NCBI GenBank assembly: GCA_016787285.1
Contig: JAEUUV010000265.1
Location: 1-48,391 of the forward strand
Source: Saprospiraceae bacterium
GTDB taxonomy: Bacteria; Bacteroidota; Bacteroidia; Chitinophagales; Saprospiraceae
DNA length: 48,391 nucleotides
Direction: 5' to 3'
Positions 1-48,391 of this stretch are shown one piece after another. The notes under the pieces were generated by a model. That model was not told the DNA's origin. It ran no database searches and saw nothing but the letters and a program-made list of their open reading frames with translations. A program made the translations under genes and the position numbers. Positions within the stretch are counted from its first letter, which is position 1. Every line of letters begins with the position of its first letter.

Positions 1-584
1 CGCAATTTGCGACCGCCGACTTTCACATACTTGTCGAGTGCTTCAACGCCTTCAGGAAAGAGGCCTTCGGCAATTTTGGCGCCGATGATGCAGACGTCGC
101 TGCCGTTGTAAAATTCGGTAGGGGAGAAGAAGCGCCCGTCCTCCTGAAATTCGAGCCGGAATATTTCGCTGCAGTCCTCGGTCATGCTCAGGAAGGGGAC
201 AAACTCCATGCTGTACGATTGCCACTTAAGCGTTTTGCTGCCCAGGAACGACCAGTAGCCTACATGTGAAGCGGTTTTCAAACGATTTTTCAGGGCTTCG
301 TATTCGCGAAAACTCTGGTTGGGGCGGCGCATCCATTTCCAGAAATTCTGGCCCGGGTCTTCCGACCAGGAAAATTTGTCGAGATAGATAACATCGTTAC
401 CGAGTTTGGATAAACTTCCCCGGATGTTGTCCTCCAGCGAGTTGACCGCGCTTTTTACGCCTATAATGCAGAATATACCGATGGTGATGCCAAGCAGCGA
501 CAGGAAGGAGCGGAGTTTGTTGGCAATCAATTGTTGCCAGGCCTGGGCGGCGCCTTCGGAGAGGATGCGGAGAATTTGGCGCAT
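1..584 (-). CDS. MacB-type ABC transporter permease, partial (3' end outside window)
   Basis: This is the N-terminal part of an FtsX/MacB-like permease, an inner-membrane protein that works with a separate ATPase in mechanotransmission-type export or efflux. Translation from the ATG at 584 begins MRQILRILSEGAAQAW and continues with LIANKLRSFLSLLGITIGIF, the typical first transmembrane helix of this family. A periplasmic MacB-like core domain follows, with aromatic-rich segments such as DKFSWSEDP and WMRRPNQSF. The gene runs off the left edge, so the remaining membrane helices and the partner ATPase cannot be seen. A nonamer repeat array lies 10 bp upstream of the start. Assignment to the family is firm; the substrate is unknown. 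Confidence 0.85.
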   Translation of the reverse strand, partial: MRQILRILSEGAAQAWQQLIANKLRSFLSLLGITIGIFCIIGVKSAVNSLEDNIRGSLSKLGNDVIYLDKFSWSEDPGQNFWKWMRRPNQSFREYEALKNRLKTASHVGYWSFLGSKTLKWQSYSMEFVPFLSMTEDCSEIFRLEFQEDGRFFSPTEFYNGSDVCIIGAKIAEGLFPEGVEALDKYVKVGGRKL

Positions 585-593
585 GTGCTGGAG

Positions 594-647
594 GATTCGA
601 TTGATTCGATTAATTCGATTGATCCGATTGGTATGATTGATTCGATT
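594..647 (-). repeat. Nonamer tandem repeat array upstream of permease start
   Basis: Six consecutive 9-bp units are seen. Read on the minus strand they are AATCGAATC, AATCATACC, AATCGGATC, AATCGAATT and two more AATCGAATC. The array ends 9 bp before the permease ATG, inside its presumed 5' untranslated region. The same unit in the same orientation relative to the start codon occurs before the gene at 24517. Confidence 0.9.
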
Positions 648-41245: not shown

Positions 41246-41353
41246 TGAATGCTTACATGTTTACTTAGATTCGGTTTTTTATTTCAACTTTGGGGCTGCA
41301 AAAGACATCTGCTTTGCTCCTTTTCACCATTTCTCAACTTAATCTGTGTGAAC

Positions 41354-43261
41354 ATGACTCGCTCTGCGGCAACCTTATTGCCTTTTTTTCTCCTTTACAT
41401 TTCAAGTGCTCGCGCTCAAAACTGCAGTCTGGATAGCAGGGTTGGTGCTGAAGCACCCTATATCAAAGAATCGCATCTTATCCCACAATTGGAAAGACAC
41501 AAACTGGATGTGTTTTACACGCAGGGGGAGGTTGAAAATGTGAGAAGAACCGTTGACAAGTGCAACCAGCAAAAGGCTGCTGAACTTTCGAAGGTTCTTG
41601 AAATGCGTCGGGATAAAATAACCAAAGCCAATACGCTCTTACGATATGCCGATGTAGCCAAAATACGGGAGCAAATCGCTGTACTGGAGCAAAGCAAAGC
41701 CGAAGCCGGAAAAAACCTGGAAAAAAGTCTCGACGGGAATGCCCCTTACGGACTATTCGTGGTGCTGATCAAAAATGTGAATGATCCCCAGAAACCCAAA
41801 CTCCAGGCAGCAGCCCAGGCAGCCCTTGCCCCCGAGGCTGTTAAAGACCTTATCGGCACTCACATTGAGCGGGTCACCAAGGTTTCCAGCATGTCTGAAG
41901 TCGAAGACCTTGTTAAATCCTACACAAATGGTGAAATGATGCCTGATGGTGGCGCTTTGATTGATCGTTTGGCGATTGCAAATCGGTATTACCTCTTTAT
42001 GGCTAAGGTTAATGTCAAACCGTTAAAACGCTCACCAACAGCCCAAAACACGAGTACAATGCCCTCAACGCTTGTTTTAAACCTTGAAATTGACGGCAAC
42101 TACGAAGCCAAACTGCAATCCGAGGGTGTAATCCGGGAACATCTGGATGAAATTAAGGCCTTGGCCAACATTCATTTGGAAAACGTAAAAAATAACAACT
42201 CCAGAGTTTTGGAACTGCTGCGTGCCGAAATCCAGAAAACAGAATCTGAGATAAGGAAGTACAACGAGAACATCGCCCAGAGAAAAAAGGATGAGGCGGC
42301 AAGCTCAAGCGAAATCAGGCGTATATGCACGGAGCTCGGGAGTTCGTTCAATCCACAGTCGCCGGAAGCAAGCGCAGCCGAAGCACAACGCAAACTCAAA
42401 CTGGAAATCGCCAACCTGGAGCGTCAGCGCATCGAAATCAACGACCGTGAAATATTCCCGCTTCATCAAATCCTGCGTGGCAGCACAGATGACGATTTGT
42501 ACAAAGACATTGCCCAGAAAATAGTGGAAGGAACGCGGAATCTGGAACAGCAGGCAGGCACTTCCTTCGAAGTGGACGAATACACCGAGGTGCGCAACGG
42601 GTTGGTAGAGCAGGATTTACAATCTACCAAGGTCAAATACATTCGCAAAATTCGTCGCATTTGGGCATATCCCATAGCCGGTAACAACAACGACTACCAA
42701 GTGGTACTTTTTGGGCAGTTCGCTTCTGAAAAAGGAGGAATCATACCTAACCAAGACCGAATACCGAAAGAAATCCCGAAGGAGAATGGTAACAAAATAA
42801 ATAATAATAAAGGCTCAGGTGTGGAAAGAAGACCTGTAGTGCGCGAAGGGCCAGGTTTTGGGGAGAGGCTTGGGGATTTTATTGAGTCATTTGAAGGCTT
42901 TGATTTATCATATCAGATCAATAGTAATTTCCAATCGGCCGATTTTGGCCTTAGGAGTGGTGATTATTTCGGCAAAATAGGATTCTCTTTGGGAGGTTAC
43001 TGGGCTAATGAAGAAGAAGATCGAGCGGGCATCCTTCTCAGGCTTGCGGCAGAAACAGCCATTGAAATAGATGAAGAATGGCGAATTGTGCTTTCTATGG
43101 ATACCTTTACGGGTTTAGGTAAGGGTTCGTTTCTAGGTATAGCACCTAAGATAGGGGTGGGATATTATTATTTATACCTCACTTTTGGGCCTGAGATCAC
43201 TACCATTTCATCAAGCAGATTCTCGGCACAAGTAGGCTTCTCCGCAAATTTTAACGAATAG
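41354..43261 (+). CDS. Exported coiled-coil protein with GTHI module and barrel-like C-terminal domain
   Basis: A 635-residue exported protein of no named family. Signal peptide MTRSAATLLPFFLLYISSARAQ; predicted coiled coil; the shared module DLIGTHIERVTKV with the HI pair near residue 168; a second coiled coil (about 285-370, LLRAEIQKTESEIRKYNENI); and RKIRRIWAYPI near 435. These match in order the N-terminal 460 residues of the protein encoded at 44429, so the two are paralogous over that part. The last 140 residues differ: glycine- and aromatic-rich strands (SGDYFGKIGFSLGGYWANEEE) suggest a beta-barrel or sandwich. DNA for this tail is noticeably AT-richer than the neighbours. I chose the ATG at 41354; an upstream frame start gives a poor leader. 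Confidence 0.75.
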   Translation: MTRSAATLLPFFLLYISSARAQNCSLDSRVGAEAPYIKESHLIPQLERHKLDVFYTQGEVENVRRTVDKCNQQKAAELSKVLEMRRDKITKANTLLRYADVAKIREQIAVLEQSKAEAGKNLEKSLDGNAPYGLFVVLIKNVNDPQKPKLQAAAQAALAPEAVKDLIGTHIERVTKVSSMSEVEDLVKSYTNGEMMPDGGALIDRLAIANRYYLFMAKVNVKPLKRSPTAQNTSTMPSTLVLNLEIDGNYEAKLQSEGVIREHLDEIKALANIHLENVKNNNSRVLELLRAEIQKTESEIRKYNENIAQRKKDEAASSSEIRRICTELGSSFNPQSPEASAAEAQRKLKLEIANLERQRIEINDREIFPLHQILRGSTDDDLYKDIAQKIVEGTRNLEQQAGTSFEVDEYTEVRNGLVEQDLQSTKVKYIRKIRRIWAYPIAGNNNDYQVVLFGQFASEKGGIIPNQDRIPKEIPKENGNKINNNKGSGVERRPVVREGPGFGERLGDFIESFEGFDLSYQINSNFQSADFGLRSGDYFGKIGFSLGGYWANEEEDRAGILLRLAAETAIEIDEEWRIVLSMDTFTGLGKGSFLGIAPKIGVGYYYLYLTFGPEITTISSSRFSAQVGFSANFNE

Positions 43262-43299: not shown

Positions 43300-44379
43300 A
43301 TGAAACAGATTACTCTATCTCTCCTAATTCTCTTTGCTTCCACCGCTCTCCACGCCACCTGCTTCCCCCTCCTCTACGCCGACGGCAAAACCGCCTGCGA
43401 ACGCCGCGAATTCAATACCGCGCTCAAGCGCCTCGAAGCCGCGCGCGGCTGCCCCGACAAACCCGCCGTGACCGATCTGGAGGACTGGATCGCCCGCGCT
43501 CGCCGTGGGCGCGACGAACGCACGGCCTGGAAACGCGCCCTCGAATCCGACAGCCGAACCGGCTGGGAGGTGTTTCTTAGCCGATTCCCCGACGGCTACT
43601 ACCGTGCCCGGGCAGAGGAGCGCTTGGACAAATGCAAAGAACAGGAGCGCAAACCGATCGTGCAGCAAACCCCCATCGGCGCTGTGGACTGGACGACCGA
43701 TATGGTGCAGGCTACCGGCGAAGCAATCATCAACCGCCAAAAATGGCCGCTCGAAGCCCAGGCCGTGCTCATGGCCAAACGCGGCGCCGAAGCCGTAGCA
43801 CGCGCCAACCTGCTCGAAACCATCGCGGGCGTACACATCCGGCGCACCACTACCGTGCGCGACCTGATGACTGAAAGCGATGAGGTGCAAACCTACGTTT
43901 CCGGCCTCGTGCGGGGGGCGCGCATCGCAGGCGAACCGCAGGTGGACAAGGACGTAGTGCGTGTCACCATGCAGGTGCCGGTGTTCGGCCCCGGAGGCGT
44001 GGCTTCGGTACTGCTTGCACCCCAGCCCGGCCCCTTTGCCGATAGCAGCGATACGCCCGATGCCGACCCGCTGGAATGGACCTTGCTGCTGCCGCCGGGT
44101 ACCGTTCCGACGTTCGCGCTTTTCCCCGTTTTTGCCGACCCGAAAGGCGCCCTGCTGTTCGACGGCGCTACGCTCAACGGGGCGGAAGAAGCGCCGCTTG
44201 CCCGCTGGAGCAAGGCAGCATCCGGAGAATATTTTACCGGAACCGACGCCTACGAGTCCGCTCTGGACGAGCAGGGGCGGCTCGTATTGCCCGATGCCGC
44301 CTTGCCGGTTTTTCAAAAATGGCTGGCACAGCGAAAGTCGGGCGGTGGGGCGCCGCCGGTGCGGGTGGTGCTGAAATAA
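43300..44379 (+). CDS. Exported LPP20/FlgT-like protein with TPR-like N-terminal repeat
   Basis: A 359-residue exported protein. Signal peptide (LLILFASTALHA); an N-terminal helical repeat with the W..A...(D/S)...G..FL..FP.GYY..RA pattern (about 75-110, RTGWEVFLSRFPDGYYRARAE) also found in the TIR protein tail; a central LPP20/FlgT-like alpha/beta domain (about 150-235, AKRGAEAVARANLLETIAGVHIRR); and a C-terminal region of unknown type ending VRVVLK. The GVHI core near residue 177 is the module shared with the flanking large proteins. Strongly GC-rich coding sequence. It starts 38 bp after the preceding gene. Confidence 0.75.
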   Translation: MKQITLSLLILFASTALHATCFPLLYADGKTACERREFNTALKRLEAARGCPDKPAVTDLEDWIARARRGRDERTAWKRALESDSRTGWEVFLSRFPDGYYRARAEERLDKCKEQERKPIVQQTPIGAVDWTTDMVQATGEAIINRQKWPLEAQAVLMAKRGAEAVARANLLETIAGVHIRRTTTVRDLMTESDEVQTYVSGLVRGARIAGEPQVDKDVVRVTMQVPVFGPGGVASVLLAPQPGPFADSSDTPDADPLEWTLLLPPGTVPTFALFPVFADPKGALLFDGATLNGAEEAPLARWSKAASGEYFTGTDAYESALDEQGRLVLPDAALPVFQKWLAQRKSGGGAPPVRVVLK

Positions 44380-44428: not shown

Positions 44429-46642
44429 ATGCGCCATCTGTTTACCTCCGTTCTGCTCCTGCTGGCAGGCGCCGCCGCCGCACAGCCCGCCGCCCAACCC
44501 GCCGATTGCCTGCCCACTGCCCTCGTGACCGCCGACTACCCCGTGACCCCGGCGGCCCTCGAACGCCTGTTCTCCGAGGCCGGACACCGGGGCGAACTCA
44601 GCCCCGGCGGCTTCGACGACCTCAAGGCCCGCATCAACCGCTGCAACAACGAAATGGAGGTGGCACTCAGCGGCATCACCGCCCAGATGTCCGAACTCTC
44701 GCTCAAGTACCAGCAAATCCTCGGCTACAAGGATGTGGAGGGCATCGAAAAACAACTGCGCGACCTCGAAGAAAGCCGCAAAAAATCGCGCGCCGAACTG
44801 GAGCAAAACCTCGGCTATGTGAAGCATTCCGGCGTGTTCGCCGTGCTGCTCGAAGGCGTGGACTTTTACCAGGGCGAACAACGCGACCGCATCGCCGCCG
44901 CCTCCCGGGCCGTCACCGCCCGCGCCGTGGACGACCTCGTGGGCGTACACATCACCCGGGTGTCGGAAGTGCGCGACTTCGCCCCCGTGCGCGACGTGGT
45001 GCTGGAAATCAAAAACGGCGAAGTGCGCCTCGAACGCGAGTACTTCGCCGAACCCGACGGCTTCAAAAAACAGTTCCTGCTCGTGGGCCGCTTCGGCGCC
45101 ACGCCTACCCGTCAAAAACCCGCCGGCGCCGGCCCGGGCGATGCCGCCGCGCTGGTGCTGAATCTGAGCAAAGACACCGATTTCCGCGCCCGTCTCAGCG
45201 CCAAAGGCGTGAAGGAAAGCCTCATTCGCCGCATCGAGCAGGAGGTGTTGCCCTTCCTGCCCAACCTGCAGCGCGACAACAAAACCGCCGACGGACGCCA
45301 GGACTACATCCTCCAGAACGGCTCGGAGGAAATCCGCCGCATTGACCGCGACATCGAGGACGCCCGCGCCCGCCTTGCCCTGCGTTCGGCCAAAGTGGGT
45401 GAAATCTGCCGCGAACTCGGCGTGCCCTTCGCCAACAGCAACTTCGGCCAGTCGGTGAACGCCGCCCTGCAAAAAATCAAGGACCAGATGCGCGACCTGA
45501 CCGCCCAGTGGAACCAGACCGCCGAGCGCGAAGTGCTGTACAAAGACAGCCGCAGCACCTCGCTCGAAGGCTCCCTCACCCAAAGTCTCGCCGCCGAGGC
45601 CCTCAAAATCTGCGGCCAGATCGGGGAAGGCTACGGCAAACTCGACCGCGTGCTACAGGTGACCGAGGTGGAAAACCTCGACGTGAGCCGCTTCGAAAGC
45701 AGCCGAACCGTCACCGTGTTCCGCGCGCCCCGCAAAATATGGGCCTACGCCATCCCCAAAGACGACGGCTCCTACGGCGTGGCCGTGCTGGTGCAGCTCC
45801 GCGTGACGGGCGTGCAGGCGGACGGGACGGGGGGCAGCGGCACGGCGCCGCCCCCCGTCACCCGGCTGCCCTACGAGCCGGAAATGGTGCGTGTGGAAGC
45901 GGGAAAGTATGAGCAGGGCTGTACTGCCGAGCAGAGCGACTGCGATAGCGATGAGCGAAACGTCCACTCGGTGCAGATCAGCGCCTTCCAGATGGGCAAG
46001 ACCGAGGTGACCAATGAGCAGTTCGTGGCGTTTTTGAACGACGTGTACGAAGACATCTCTGTGGAGAACACACAGGTCACCTACAACGGTAACTTGTTCT
46101 TTGATCTCAGTTCAAAACTTGTTCACAGCAAACAAAACAAGTTCAGTGTCAAGCCGGGCTACGAAAAACACCCAGTGGTATATGTTTCCTGGATAGCGGC
46201 TGTGGAGTACTGTGCATGGCTGAACCAAAAGACCGGCAAAAAGTATCGGCTGCCGACCGAGGCCGAGTGGGAATATGCCGCACGCGGAGGCGCCAAATCC
46301 AAATCGTTCAAGTATTCTGGCAGCAACAACATCAACGAGGTAGGGTGGTACAACAATAATTCCGGCTCCGATACGCATCCCGTGGCAGAAAAAAAAGCCA
46401 ACGAACTCGGCCTGTACGACATGAGCGGCAATGTGTGGGAGTGGTGTGCGGACTGGTACGCCGAAAGTTACCCCACGACTGCGCAAACAAATCCTAAAGG
46501 CCCCACATCCGGAACCTACCGTGTGCTTCGCGGCGGGTCGTGGCTCCTCAATGTCAGGTACTGCCGGGTGTCGGTGCGTTACTGGGGCTTCCCGTACGAC
46601 AGGTACGGCTTCAACGGTTTTCGGGTAGCCCAGGATTATTAA
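44429..46642 (+). CDS. Exported coiled-coil/GVHI protein fused to an FGE (C-type-lectin-like) domain; candidate DGR target
   Basis: A 737-residue exported protein. Signal peptide (LFTSVLLLLAGAAAAQ); coiled coil; shared module VDDLVGVHITRVSEVRD near residue 172; second coiled coil (about 300-370) with EICRELG; RKIWAYAIPKDDGSYGVAVL near 435; then from about 485 a formylglycine-generating-enzyme domain (VRVEAGKYEQGC, KTEVTNEQFVAFLN, YRLPTEAEWEYAARGG, LYDMSGNVWEWCADW, RVLRGGSW). Catalytic FGE has two Cys spaced five apart; here the first is replaced by Leu and only YCRVS is left, so sulfatase activation is unlikely and ligand binding is favoured. The last ~30 codons look like a DGR variable region. 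DNA of the FGE part is AT-richer than the N-terminal part, as if grafted on. Confidence 0.88.
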   Translation: MRHLFTSVLLLLAGAAAAQPAAQPADCLPTALVTADYPVTPAALERLFSEAGHRGELSPGGFDDLKARINRCNNEMEVALSGITAQMSELSLKYQQILGYKDVEGIEKQLRDLEESRKKSRAELEQNLGYVKHSGVFAVLLEGVDFYQGEQRDRIAAASRAVTARAVDDLVGVHITRVSEVRDFAPVRDVVLEIKNGEVRLEREYFAEPDGFKKQFLLVGRFGATPTRQKPAGAGPGDAAALVLNLSKDTDFRARLSAKGVKESLIRRIEQEVLPFLPNLQRDNKTADGRQDYILQNGSEEIRRIDRDIEDARARLALRSAKVGEICRELGVPFANSNFGQSVNAALQKIKDQMRDLTAQWNQTAEREVLYKDSRSTSLEGSLTQSLAAEALKICGQIGEGYGKLDRVLQVTEVENLDVSRFESSRTVTVFRAPRKIWAYAIPKDDGSYGVAVLVQLRVTGVQADGTGGSGTAPPPVTRLPYEPEMVRVEAGKYEQGCTAEQSDCDSDERNVHSVQISAFQMGKTEVTNEQFVAFLNDVYEDISVENTQVTYNGNLFFDLSSKLVHSKQNKFSVKPGYEKHPVVYVSWIAAVEYCAWLNQKTGKKYRLPTEAEWEYAARGGAKSKSFKYSGSNNINEVGWYNNNSGSDTHPVAEKKANELGLYDMSGNVWEWCADWYAESYPTTAQTNPKGPTSGTYRVLRGGSWLLNVRYCRVSVRYWGFPYDRYGFNGFRVAQDY
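46541..46624 (+). other. Candidate DGR variable region (VR) at the 3' end of the FGE domain
   Basis: Within the constant frame GGSW...R.CRVS.R....P.DR....GFR the intervening codons are CTC, CTC, GTC, TAC, GTG, TAC, TGG, GGC, TTC, TAC, TAC, GGC, TTC and AAC. All but two end in C, as expected if they derive from template AAC codons mutated at adenines. The position, the last codons of an FGE/CLec domain, is the usual site in Bacteroidota DGR targets. No template repeat or reverse transcriptase is within the window, so the call rests on codon pattern and location. Confidence 0.45.
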
Positions 46643-46746
46643 CCTTTTTTCTTTTACGCTTTTTCCCTTTTCTTTTTTTGCGTGCAGCGCTTTTTTTCTT
46701 TTCGGCGAAGCCGGCGCGTTTTGATTAGTTATAATTCTCAAGCCAA

Positions 46747-46899
46747 GCCCTGAAAGGGCTATATGTTTATAGCATGGAAATGTGGCACATTCGAGAACCC
46801 CGAAGGGGTTTTATGTCCAACTAACGTTGTGACATACAACCCCTTCAGGGTTGATGCCCGAATAATTCCTCTTCTATAAACATATAACCCCTTCGGGCT
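46747..46899. repeat. Nested intergenic inverted repeats
   Basis: An outer pair (46747-46772, AGCCCTGAAAGGGCTATATG..., with its complement at about 46873-46899) encloses an inner pair (GAACCCCGAAGGGGTTTTATGTC near 46795 and its complement at 46831-46853). The CCCCGAAGGGG/ATATGTTTATAG composition is typical of dispersed intergenic palindromes in this phylum. It lies between the FGE gene and the transposase; the segment 46643-46746 before it is T-rich and shows nothing else. Confidence 0.75.
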
Positions 46900-46931
46900 A
46901 CGGTTCCTACATATCTTTACAGCAAAAACTC

Positions 46932-48391
46932 ATGGGCACAACGATATTCTTTCCCCAGAGTAGGTTAGACTTTAAGACTTCATTGGCTCCTGGTCAACGT
47001 TATCGCCATTGTTTTGGGGACAAGCGGCTTGCGGTTCGACATCAGGATATGTTGGCTGGCATGCTTGGCCAAGGGAGCATCGTGGTAAATCAGTTAAGTA
47101 AGGATAAGAGCGAACAGGCCGGTTATTACCGATTCTTGAGCAACGAGAAGGTCACGACCTGTGAGTTAATCTATGAGAGCACCCGTCTTGACATTGGATC
47201 GACCAAGGGCAAGGACATCCTCGTCCTTCAGGACAGCACATCAATCGGTCTGGACAGGAAGTTGAGATACAAGGATTACTGGCAGGACAAGATCGGGGTA
47301 ATAGATGACAACTGTACGCCCGGTTTTTATTTACACTGCTCTTTATCAATAGATTGGGAGAGTTTTTCTGTGCTTGGGCTTGGAGACATAGCACTTTACA
47401 CGCGGCCGTTGAACAGGCTGAGCCAAGAGGAAAGACTGAGGGCGCGCACGGCGCGCCGCAAACTTCCGTTGGAGCAGCAGGAATCACATGTGTGGGCGCT
47501 GTGCGCATCCAACAGCATCAGCCAGATGAAGGAGAGTCGCCGGGTCACTGTGGTGATGGATCAGGGAGGCGACAAGTATGAAGTTTTGGGCCGGATATTG
47601 GCCGACTCGTTCGTCGAGGCGCTGTGGCGATCCAAAGAAGACCGACAGGTAGTCGAGGGCGGCGTGGTGACGGGCCGGCGGCTTTCCGATGTGCTTGGCG
47701 GCTTGCCGTGGAGTCCGTCCCGCCCTACCGCAATCCGGGCGTTGGACCATTACAGCAAGAGCAGCGGCAAACGGGTTCAACGCGCCGGCAGGATCGCCCT
47801 CATACGGGTCCGCTATGCAAAGGTATGCCTTGCCCTGCCCAGTGGGCTGCGCCGGGAGTGTGCCGCCCTTCGCCGTGCGCTCTATGTGGTGGAGGCCGAA
47901 GAAGTCTCCTCCACGGTGCCCCCGGGGGAAGACCCGATCAAGTGGCGATTGCTGACCACTTGGGAGGTGTGCACTGATGGGCAGGCCTGGAAGGTGGTGG
48001 AGGCCTATCAGGCCAGATGGTTCATCGAGCAACTCTTCAGAATATTGAAAAAACAAGGTCTGCATATAGAGAACACACAGTTCAAGACCGTCCAGTCAAT
48101 TAAAAACCAGGCGATTATGGCAATATGTACATCCACCAAGGCCCTGCAGTTGACATTGGCCCGAGAGGGCACCCCTTTCATCCCAATAGAAACCATGTTT
48201 GATGAGGCGCAGCAAGCGGCGCTCATCATATTGAACAAGGAGTTCTCGGGAAAAACACAAAAACAACTCAACCCGCACGACCCCACAAGTTTGGCCTGGG
48301 CAGCATGGGTCATAGCAAGAATGGGGGGATGGAAGGGATATGCCACCCAAAGACCCCCAGGCCCAATAACTATGATGCGTGGGCTGGAGGC
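46932..48391 (+). CDS. IS4-family (Tn5/IS50-like) transposase, partial (runs off window)
   Basis: An uninterrupted frame of 486 codons from the ATG at 46932 to the window edge, encoding a DDE transposase of the Tn5-like branch of IS4. DNA-binding N terminus with SEQAGYYRFLSNEKV (compare YRFL.N in the family); first Asp in LVLQDST at residue 101; second Asp in VVMDQGGDKYE at 210; and the YREK-type motif YQARWFIEQLFRILKKQG with Glu366. W.LLTTWEV precedes the third motif as in Tn5. No stop codon or frameshift is seen, so the element may be active, but its 3' end and terminal repeats are outside view. Confidence 0.9.
   Translation, partial: MGTTIFFPQSRLDFKTSLAPGQRYRHCFGDKRLAVRHQDMLAGMLGQGSIVVNQLSKDKSEQAGYYRFLSNEKVTTCELIYESTRLDIGSTKGKDILVLQDSTSIGLDRKLRYKDYWQDKIGVIDDNCTPGFYLHCSLSIDWESFSVLGLGDIALYTRPLNRLSQEERLRARTARRKLPLEQQESHVWALCASNSISQMKESRRVTVVMDQGGDKYEVLGRILADSFVEALWRSKEDRQVVEGGVVTGRRLSDVLGGLPWSPSRPTAIRALDHYSKSSGKRVQRAGRIALIRVRYAKVCLALPSGLRRECAALRRALYVVEAEEVSSTVPPGEDPIKWRLLTTWEVCTDGQAWKVVEAYQARWFIEQLFRILKKQGLHIENTQFKTVQSIKNQAIMAICTSTKALQLTLAREGTPFIPIETMFDEAQQAALIILNKEFSGKTQKQLNPHDPTSLAWAAWVIARMGGWKGYATQRPPGPITMMRGLE
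46932..48391 (+). mobile_element. Insertion sequence, IS4 family, left part
   Basis: The region holds the transposase described above. The left terminal repeat could not be fixed: the nested palindromes just upstream may be a separate intergenic element rather than the IS end. The element lies 290 bp downstream of the FGE gene, where DGR template or reverse-transcriptase genes would often be found. Confidence 0.55.

Follow-up and report, generated by a model that had tools for sequence, protein, structure and literature searches.

The 3' end of a gene close to the right-hand side of the window (the whole stretch of DNA analysed, 48,391 nucleotides, contig C333 of a Saprospiraceae genome) is the variable repeat (VR) of a diversity-generating retroelement (DGR), whose template repeat (TR), reverse transcriptase (RT) and Avd gene are all found in the same genome; I put the probability of this reading at about 96%. 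A first-pass annotation, made from the letters of the window, had already recognised the end of this gene as a DGR target, and raw sequence together with a whole-genome search now confirms that the DGR is complete and that its target is a protein which is probably exported. The locus further shows that the helper gene of a DGR cassette can be flipped, in a layout that recurs in related bacteria. The coordinates of its parts are collected in Table 1.

Table 1. Features of the locus in the window and on contig C106
Feature	Position	Strand	Basis and remarks
DGR target gene	44429-46642	+	open reading frame, 737 aa
FGE/C-type-lectin domain in target gene	45875-46630	+	PF03781, E 4e-58, aa 483-734
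Variable repeat (VR), 113 bases	46521-46633	+	ungapped match to TR
IMH-like stretch	46612-46633	+	22 bases identical to TR; last changed base 46611; divergence beyond 46633
Candidate homing stem-loop	46703-46713	+	4-bp stem, GAA loop, ~70 bases 3' of VR; by eye, weak
IS4-family insertion sequence	46892-48391, runs off window end	+	~1.57 kb including C106 part; both ends estimated
IS4-family transposase gene	46932-48389, 3' end on C106	+	NF033590, 205 bits (cut-off 160)
Overlap with contig C106	48251-48391	+	141 bases identical to C106 start
Template repeat (TR)	C106:313-425	+	ungapped match to window 46521-46633
Spacer RNA	C106 ~435-596	+	covariance-model match, 3' of template
avd gene, 102 aa	C106:603-911	-	NF033474, 80.1 bits (cut-off 80); PF22296, 45.8 (cut-off 40)
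RT gene, 367 aa	C106:939-2042	+	RVT_1, 80.8 bits, over cut-off

The annotation had cautioned, correctly, that neither a template nor an RT lies in the window, and had proposed looking elsewhere in the genome for a near-identical copy of the gene's end, its variable codons reading AAC, adjoining a DGR-type RT. Both are found on contig C106, the copy lying on the same strand as the RT gene and about 510 bases upstream of it; the outcome that the annotation had named as refuting it, a genome lacking template or RT, did not arise. The template reads GGSWNNNDRNCRVSERNRNNPNNRNNNNGFR. It is identical to the VR at 93 of 113 bases, and all of the 20 differences fall on the template's 33 adenines (P = 7e-14), which are changed to T (13), G (5) or C (2). 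By codon position, 12 of the mismatches are at the first base, 8 at the second and none at the third. The 18 variable template codons comprise 12 AAC, 1 AAT, 3 AGG, 1 GAC and 1 GAG; in none of the 18 can adenine changes produce a stop codon, and the number of possible stop-free proteins is about 8.4e17. The extent first given to the pattern, 46520-46642, does contain the VR, which the template match confines to the slightly shorter interval of Table 1. By analogy with the Bordetella phage BPP-1, the identical bases at the 3' end of the VR may serve as an IMH-like stretch. In all five of the other loci looked at, short hairpins appear by eye to follow the VR; here, the 70 bases directly after the VR fold into none comparable to them.

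The invariant blocks that had drawn attention to the region (GGSW, CRVS, DR and GFR) and the C-ending codons stand where they had been placed, whereas the accompanying excess of NNC codons is not above chance: 14 of the 24 codons in 46544-46615 are of this form, compared with 51% over the whole gene (P = 0.31). Of 714 equal-sized stretches of the gene, 279 equal or exceed this one. The observation is real because of the template, with its adenine-confined mismatches, and not because of the codon pattern. Ordinary conservation in the FGE family, combined with C-ending codon use and without any DGR, would agree with these counts and with the fact that solved FGE-family chains likewise end in a GGS...GFR-like segment; it is nevertheless refuted by the template repeat, and the joint presence in one genome of an AAC-bearing template, an RT and an Avd gene leaves it with a practically negligible probability. 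Furthermore, the genome has 21 FGE matches, a number that includes the template, and of these only C333 and C48 are significantly template-like at the DNA level. When the template was compared with the whole genome at E <= 10, the significant ones among the 22 matches were, in the same way, the template itself, the VR and an FGE gene on C48. Two FGE fragments, on C275 and C259, have GGSW...GFR-like ends but gave no DNA-level match to the template in the genome search.

The RT matches the reverse transcriptase family of PHROG (E 2e-121) and carries the motif IGNQTSQ, which I take to be the exact form of the SQ motif of DGRs. An SQ motif is named in PMC3521204. The best NCBIfam match of this RT is a group II intron family, below the cut-off of that family, and it is the only RVT_1 match in the genome (5.56 Mb, 345 contigs). 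On the evidence of its motif and of the TR/VR-like pairs that accompany its relatives, it is of DGR type. Regarding these relatives, an RT search of 150 genomes of the family found matches at E <= 1e-20 in 33, the source genome included, with 40 places listed; in 20 of the 39 places outside the source genome the surrounding regions were compared. With a threshold of at least 80% of mismatches at the adenines of one strand, 19 of these 20 loci have an adenine-biased repeat pair (81-100% of mismatches at one strand's adenines), the exception being L092, which has none. As to the helper protein, the score of Avd sits right at the NCBIfam cut-off, and its product also matches the PHROG family 'Avd protein of DGR'. 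The avd gene lies between template and RT, antisense and head-to-head with the RT gene; an alternative Avd start at C106:950, as judged from the translation, would overlap the RT start. The reading frames of RT and avd are both uninterrupted.

The window and C106 are joined by an exact overlap inside the IS4-family transposase gene, of the length that an assembly graph with k = 141 leaves between neighbouring contigs. Target, insertion sequence (IS), template, antisense avd and RT, in this order, therefore most likely form a single locus, the physical linkage of target and template being inferred from the two contigs through that 141-base overlap within the IS. At E <= 0.001, the DNA of the IS has a single further match in the genome: its left end recurs, inverted, at C106:184-209. 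DGRs are thought to act in trans, with no need for linkage between target and template. VR and TR are separated here by 1929 bases as against 105-159 in four related loci, so that the IS seems to have been inserted into a once more compact cassette; the insertion left both repeats intact. Several short palindromic repeats, of units like CCCTGAAAGGGCTATATGTTTATAG and AACCCCTTCGGG, can also be made out by eye at 46740-46915, after the target gene and before the IS.

In the target protein, the PF03781 domain stops at the VR, which, judged from sequence, lies at the 3' end of a gene for a protein of C-type-lectin fold. The solved chain closest to this domain by sequence is 2y3c, the Treponema denticola variable protein 1 (TvpA; E 9e-32), itself a DGR target. 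TvpA is an FGE-type variable protein, and its variable segment aligns with that of the target described here; unlike TvpA, which comes from another group of organisms, the present target adds some 480 N-terminal residues, mostly common to the gene at 41249-43261. A Pfam search gave no match for these residues, and BLASTP aligns them to the product of the 41249-43261 gene at 26% identity over 410 positions (E 6e-32). Elsewhere in the family, the N-terminal region is found at E <= 1e-4 in one other genome of the 150 (G062), with two matches about 1 kb apart. By eye, the N-terminus looks like a secretion signal, and the protein is probably an exported sensor, adhesin or binding protein with a randomised lectin-like face, as far as its sequence can tell. 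The neighbourhood offers some observations of its own. The region common to the 41249-43261 and 44429-45868 genes, of about 400 residues, is without a Pfam match; the former gene seems, by eye, to run on into a membrane-barrel-like C-terminus; and between the two genes sharing this N-terminal region, the gene at 43300-44379 has a weak, sub-cut-off match to the LPP20 lipoprotein family (E 0.002).

A candidate for a second live target, the TIR-FGE gene at C48:1001-2323 (locus L049), was rejected. It differs from the template at 34 positions, 19 of which are adenines (P = 1e-4), and 17 bases near the end of its VR match the template exactly; as the other 15 differences fall on non-adenines, the gene is better read as a former target. 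Its product, which has an immune-type effector domain, was probably once diversified by the DGR. Palindromic units like those at 46740-46915 also follow this gene (by eye).

I infer for this DGR a chain of transcription, reverse transcription, homing, export and ligand binding, modelled on BPP-1. An RNA made from C106 would carry the invariant template repeat and, 3' to it, a structured spacer; RT and Avd, bound to the spacer, would make a cDNA of the template with errors at its adenines; and this mutated cDNA would then take the place of the target's 3' end, to which the 22 bases shared by VR and TR at their 3' ends would guide it. In this way, the 18 codons of the FGE (C-type-lectin) domain would vary and the binding face of the exported protein would be randomised. 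That the DGR is still working is likely, though I am less sure of it than of its identity. The competing view, which concerns its present activity only, holds that rewriting of the VR has come to an end, the cassette having since been silenced by the IS or by loss of expression. The long VR-TR interval produced by the IS and the C48 gene, which looks like an abandoned target, would fit such a history; set against it, RT and avd have kept intact frames, and VR and TR differ at adenines only, in all 20 cases, so that the two repeats have hardly drifted since the last rewriting. Inactivity is, on this evidence, rather unlikely.

With the DGR of the Bordetella phage BPP-1 (gene order mtd-avd-TR-brt), in which a structured spacer lies 3' of the template according to PMC12875486, the present system shares the VR at the 3' end of the target, the adenine-specific differences, the RT together with Avd, and the structured spacer. 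Unlike BPP-1, it is cellular and not phage-borne, its avd is antisense between template and RT, and an IS lies between target and template. 'Inverted' DGRs have been described in DiGReF as group 4, in Shewanella, Vibrio and Photobacterium, with part of the cassette flipped and the DGR features kept (PMC3521204); there, the RT runs against the direction of TR, VR and target, whereas here RT, TR and VR agree and it is avd that is opposite. In multicellular bacteria, DGRs are also reported to act on conflict systems whose sensors are of FGE type (PMC10907252). The FGE/C-type-lectin targets are common to both, and C48 codes for an older target that is a TIR-FGE protein; however, no effector or NTPase domain is recognised in the present target, which looks, by eye, exported, and a Pfam scan of a few neighbouring proteins found no conflict-system domains.

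The orientation of avd was compared in three sets of loci. In 21 family loci, this one included, avd is antisense and upstream of the RT in 3, on the same strand upstream in 5 and lacking in 13. The best 80 of 517 relatives in a collection of species genomes have it on the same strand upstream (46), on the same strand downstream (23), antisense upstream (7) or not at all (4). In 74 loci of viral contigs, it is on the same strand upstream in 61 and lacking in 13. Counting L102, which is the same contig as L082, once, and leaving near-copies in the other avd classes, antisense avd occurs in nine distinct loci out of 144 avd-bearing loci examined (the best 80 of 517 species-genome relatives included); all nine belong, as judged by record title or kinship, to Bacteroidota. 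That the source genome is a draft might suggest that the antisense gene is an artefact of assembly or binning, yet eight more distinct loci, spread over six other assemblies, have avd and RT head-to-head; the part of avd that was matched ends 30-46 bases short of the RT start, and in several loci the start codons of avd and RT look, by eye, adjacent or overlapping (in L137 and L165 they appear to overlap as CATG). An artefact is, for this reason, very improbable.

The order VR, TR, antisense avd and RT is common to the source locus, L082, L104, L136 and L165. Elsewhere the arrangement varies: L083 has its VR past the RT and on the opposite strand, L107 has a template-like repeat 3' of the RT, in L137 such a repeat lies 5' of avd with no VR within the stretch examined, and in L153 the repeat search found no repeat. 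Whether antisense avd arose once was addressed with 51 of 97 rows, chosen partly at random, on which a single origin (9 rows versus 42) was not rejected, at an AU p of 0.06; on a quick tree the nine antisense-avd rows need four changes, and in a first FastTree of all 97 rows they do not form one clade, the supports being weak. In the available parts of PMC6642488, PMC3521204, PMC10053308, PMC12875486, PMC8867640, PMC8144416, PMC10907252 and PMC7517822 there is no mention of antisense avd; PMC6642488 sorts cassette patterns by TR, VR and RT, and the term avd is absent from the corresponding text of PMC3521204, PMC8144416, PMC10907252 and PMC7517822. This uncommon orientation and the conserved spacer RNA are points that a specialist might follow.

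The 3' flank of the template encodes a structured spacer RNA. In six loci, 172-204 bases separate the end of the TR from the 3' end of avd (or from the end of the matched stretch), and the spacers align across the antisense-avd loci. A first alignment of seven spacers, based purely on sequence, gave 27 pairs with RNAalifold, 11 of them with two-sided changes, and a small covariation term (-1.42 of -19.89 kcal/mol). A covariance model built from seven loci with 14 template bases included (R1) was searched over 83 sources and matched many template flanks, other phyla included. When 27 R1 matches were aligned (E <= 0.001, from 27 sources picked for an earlier R1 match, by fitting to the structure, which favours structure), 24 of 27 pairs showed two-sided changes, and 87.9% of cells were paired versus 63.6% in shuffled alignments, with none of 500 shuffles as high; sliding the structure along the alignment lowers the figure to 39-50%. 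In helix 6, two-sided changes occur at all 12 pairs.

A second model, R2, built from the spacers of seven loci with no template base, was searched over 178 sources. At E <= 10 it gave 66 matches; discarding 11 whose E exceeded 0.01 left 55, the source genome's own among them; the 54 outside it consist of 6 training loci and 48 others. Among these 48, 40 stand on the strand of a TR detected independently and 5-120 bases beyond its 3' end, several of them looking like near-copies (L182/L183, L204/L205); in L089 the match begins 6 bases before the TR end; two, in L227 and L228, are far from the TR; and five have no detected TR, one of these being L137, which nearly duplicates the training locus L165. 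R2 misses most loci: a TR was detected in 132 of 175 loci (L102, the copy of L082, being outside the R2 search), and 46 of these 132, the source locus included, carry a match at E <= 0.01 on the 3' side of the TR. Rfam has no match in C106 at gathering thresholds, nor in C106:200-1200 at E <= 1. That a structured spacer follows the template is a concept already known; the addition made here is a searchable model that finds template flanks in several phyla, and which could locate templates without a nearby VR, such as pairwise repeat searches miss.

The reach of this RNA family to phages is suggestive. With default filters and E <= 10, R2 has no match in the phage DGR loci L260-L262; with filters off, over 1.1 kb of L260 (the BPP-1-like phage PV330005, in which the template was placed by eye), the best of 15 places is the template-RT interval, a weak match of 5.5 bits (E 0.064) which sets the phage spacer apart from the present one. 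As to the 3' end of the spacer, a simple scan places a terminator-like site at C106:570-586, overlapping helix 6, and this helix with its T-rich tail resembles an intrinsic terminator, the support being weak because four such sites occur in the region versus 1.7 expected. A broader proposal, tentative and on balance somewhat doubtful, is that in this group of Bacteroidota DGRs template and spacer may form an autonomous RNA gene with its own terminator-like hairpin (helix 6 and a U-rich tail), that avd and RT may be divergent genes with adjacent or overlapping starts, and that avd may be transcribed in the direction of the template RNA, perhaps overlapping it in antisense, so that the supply of helper would be coupled to that of template; the spacer would then be one ancestral RNA family, absent from Rfam, of cellular and phage DGRs that range over several phyla, Bacteroidota and BPP-1 included.

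Two kinds of spacer matches deserve separate mention. On two viral contigs, probably near-copies (L227, 1042-1152, and L228, 1800-1910), the R2 match lies about 4 kb from the detected template and perhaps marks a second, unpaired template. In L103 (7501-7659) and L106 (7517-7731), the spacer RNA match and the template are on the strand opposite to the RT, so that template and RT must be transcribed separately in these loci.
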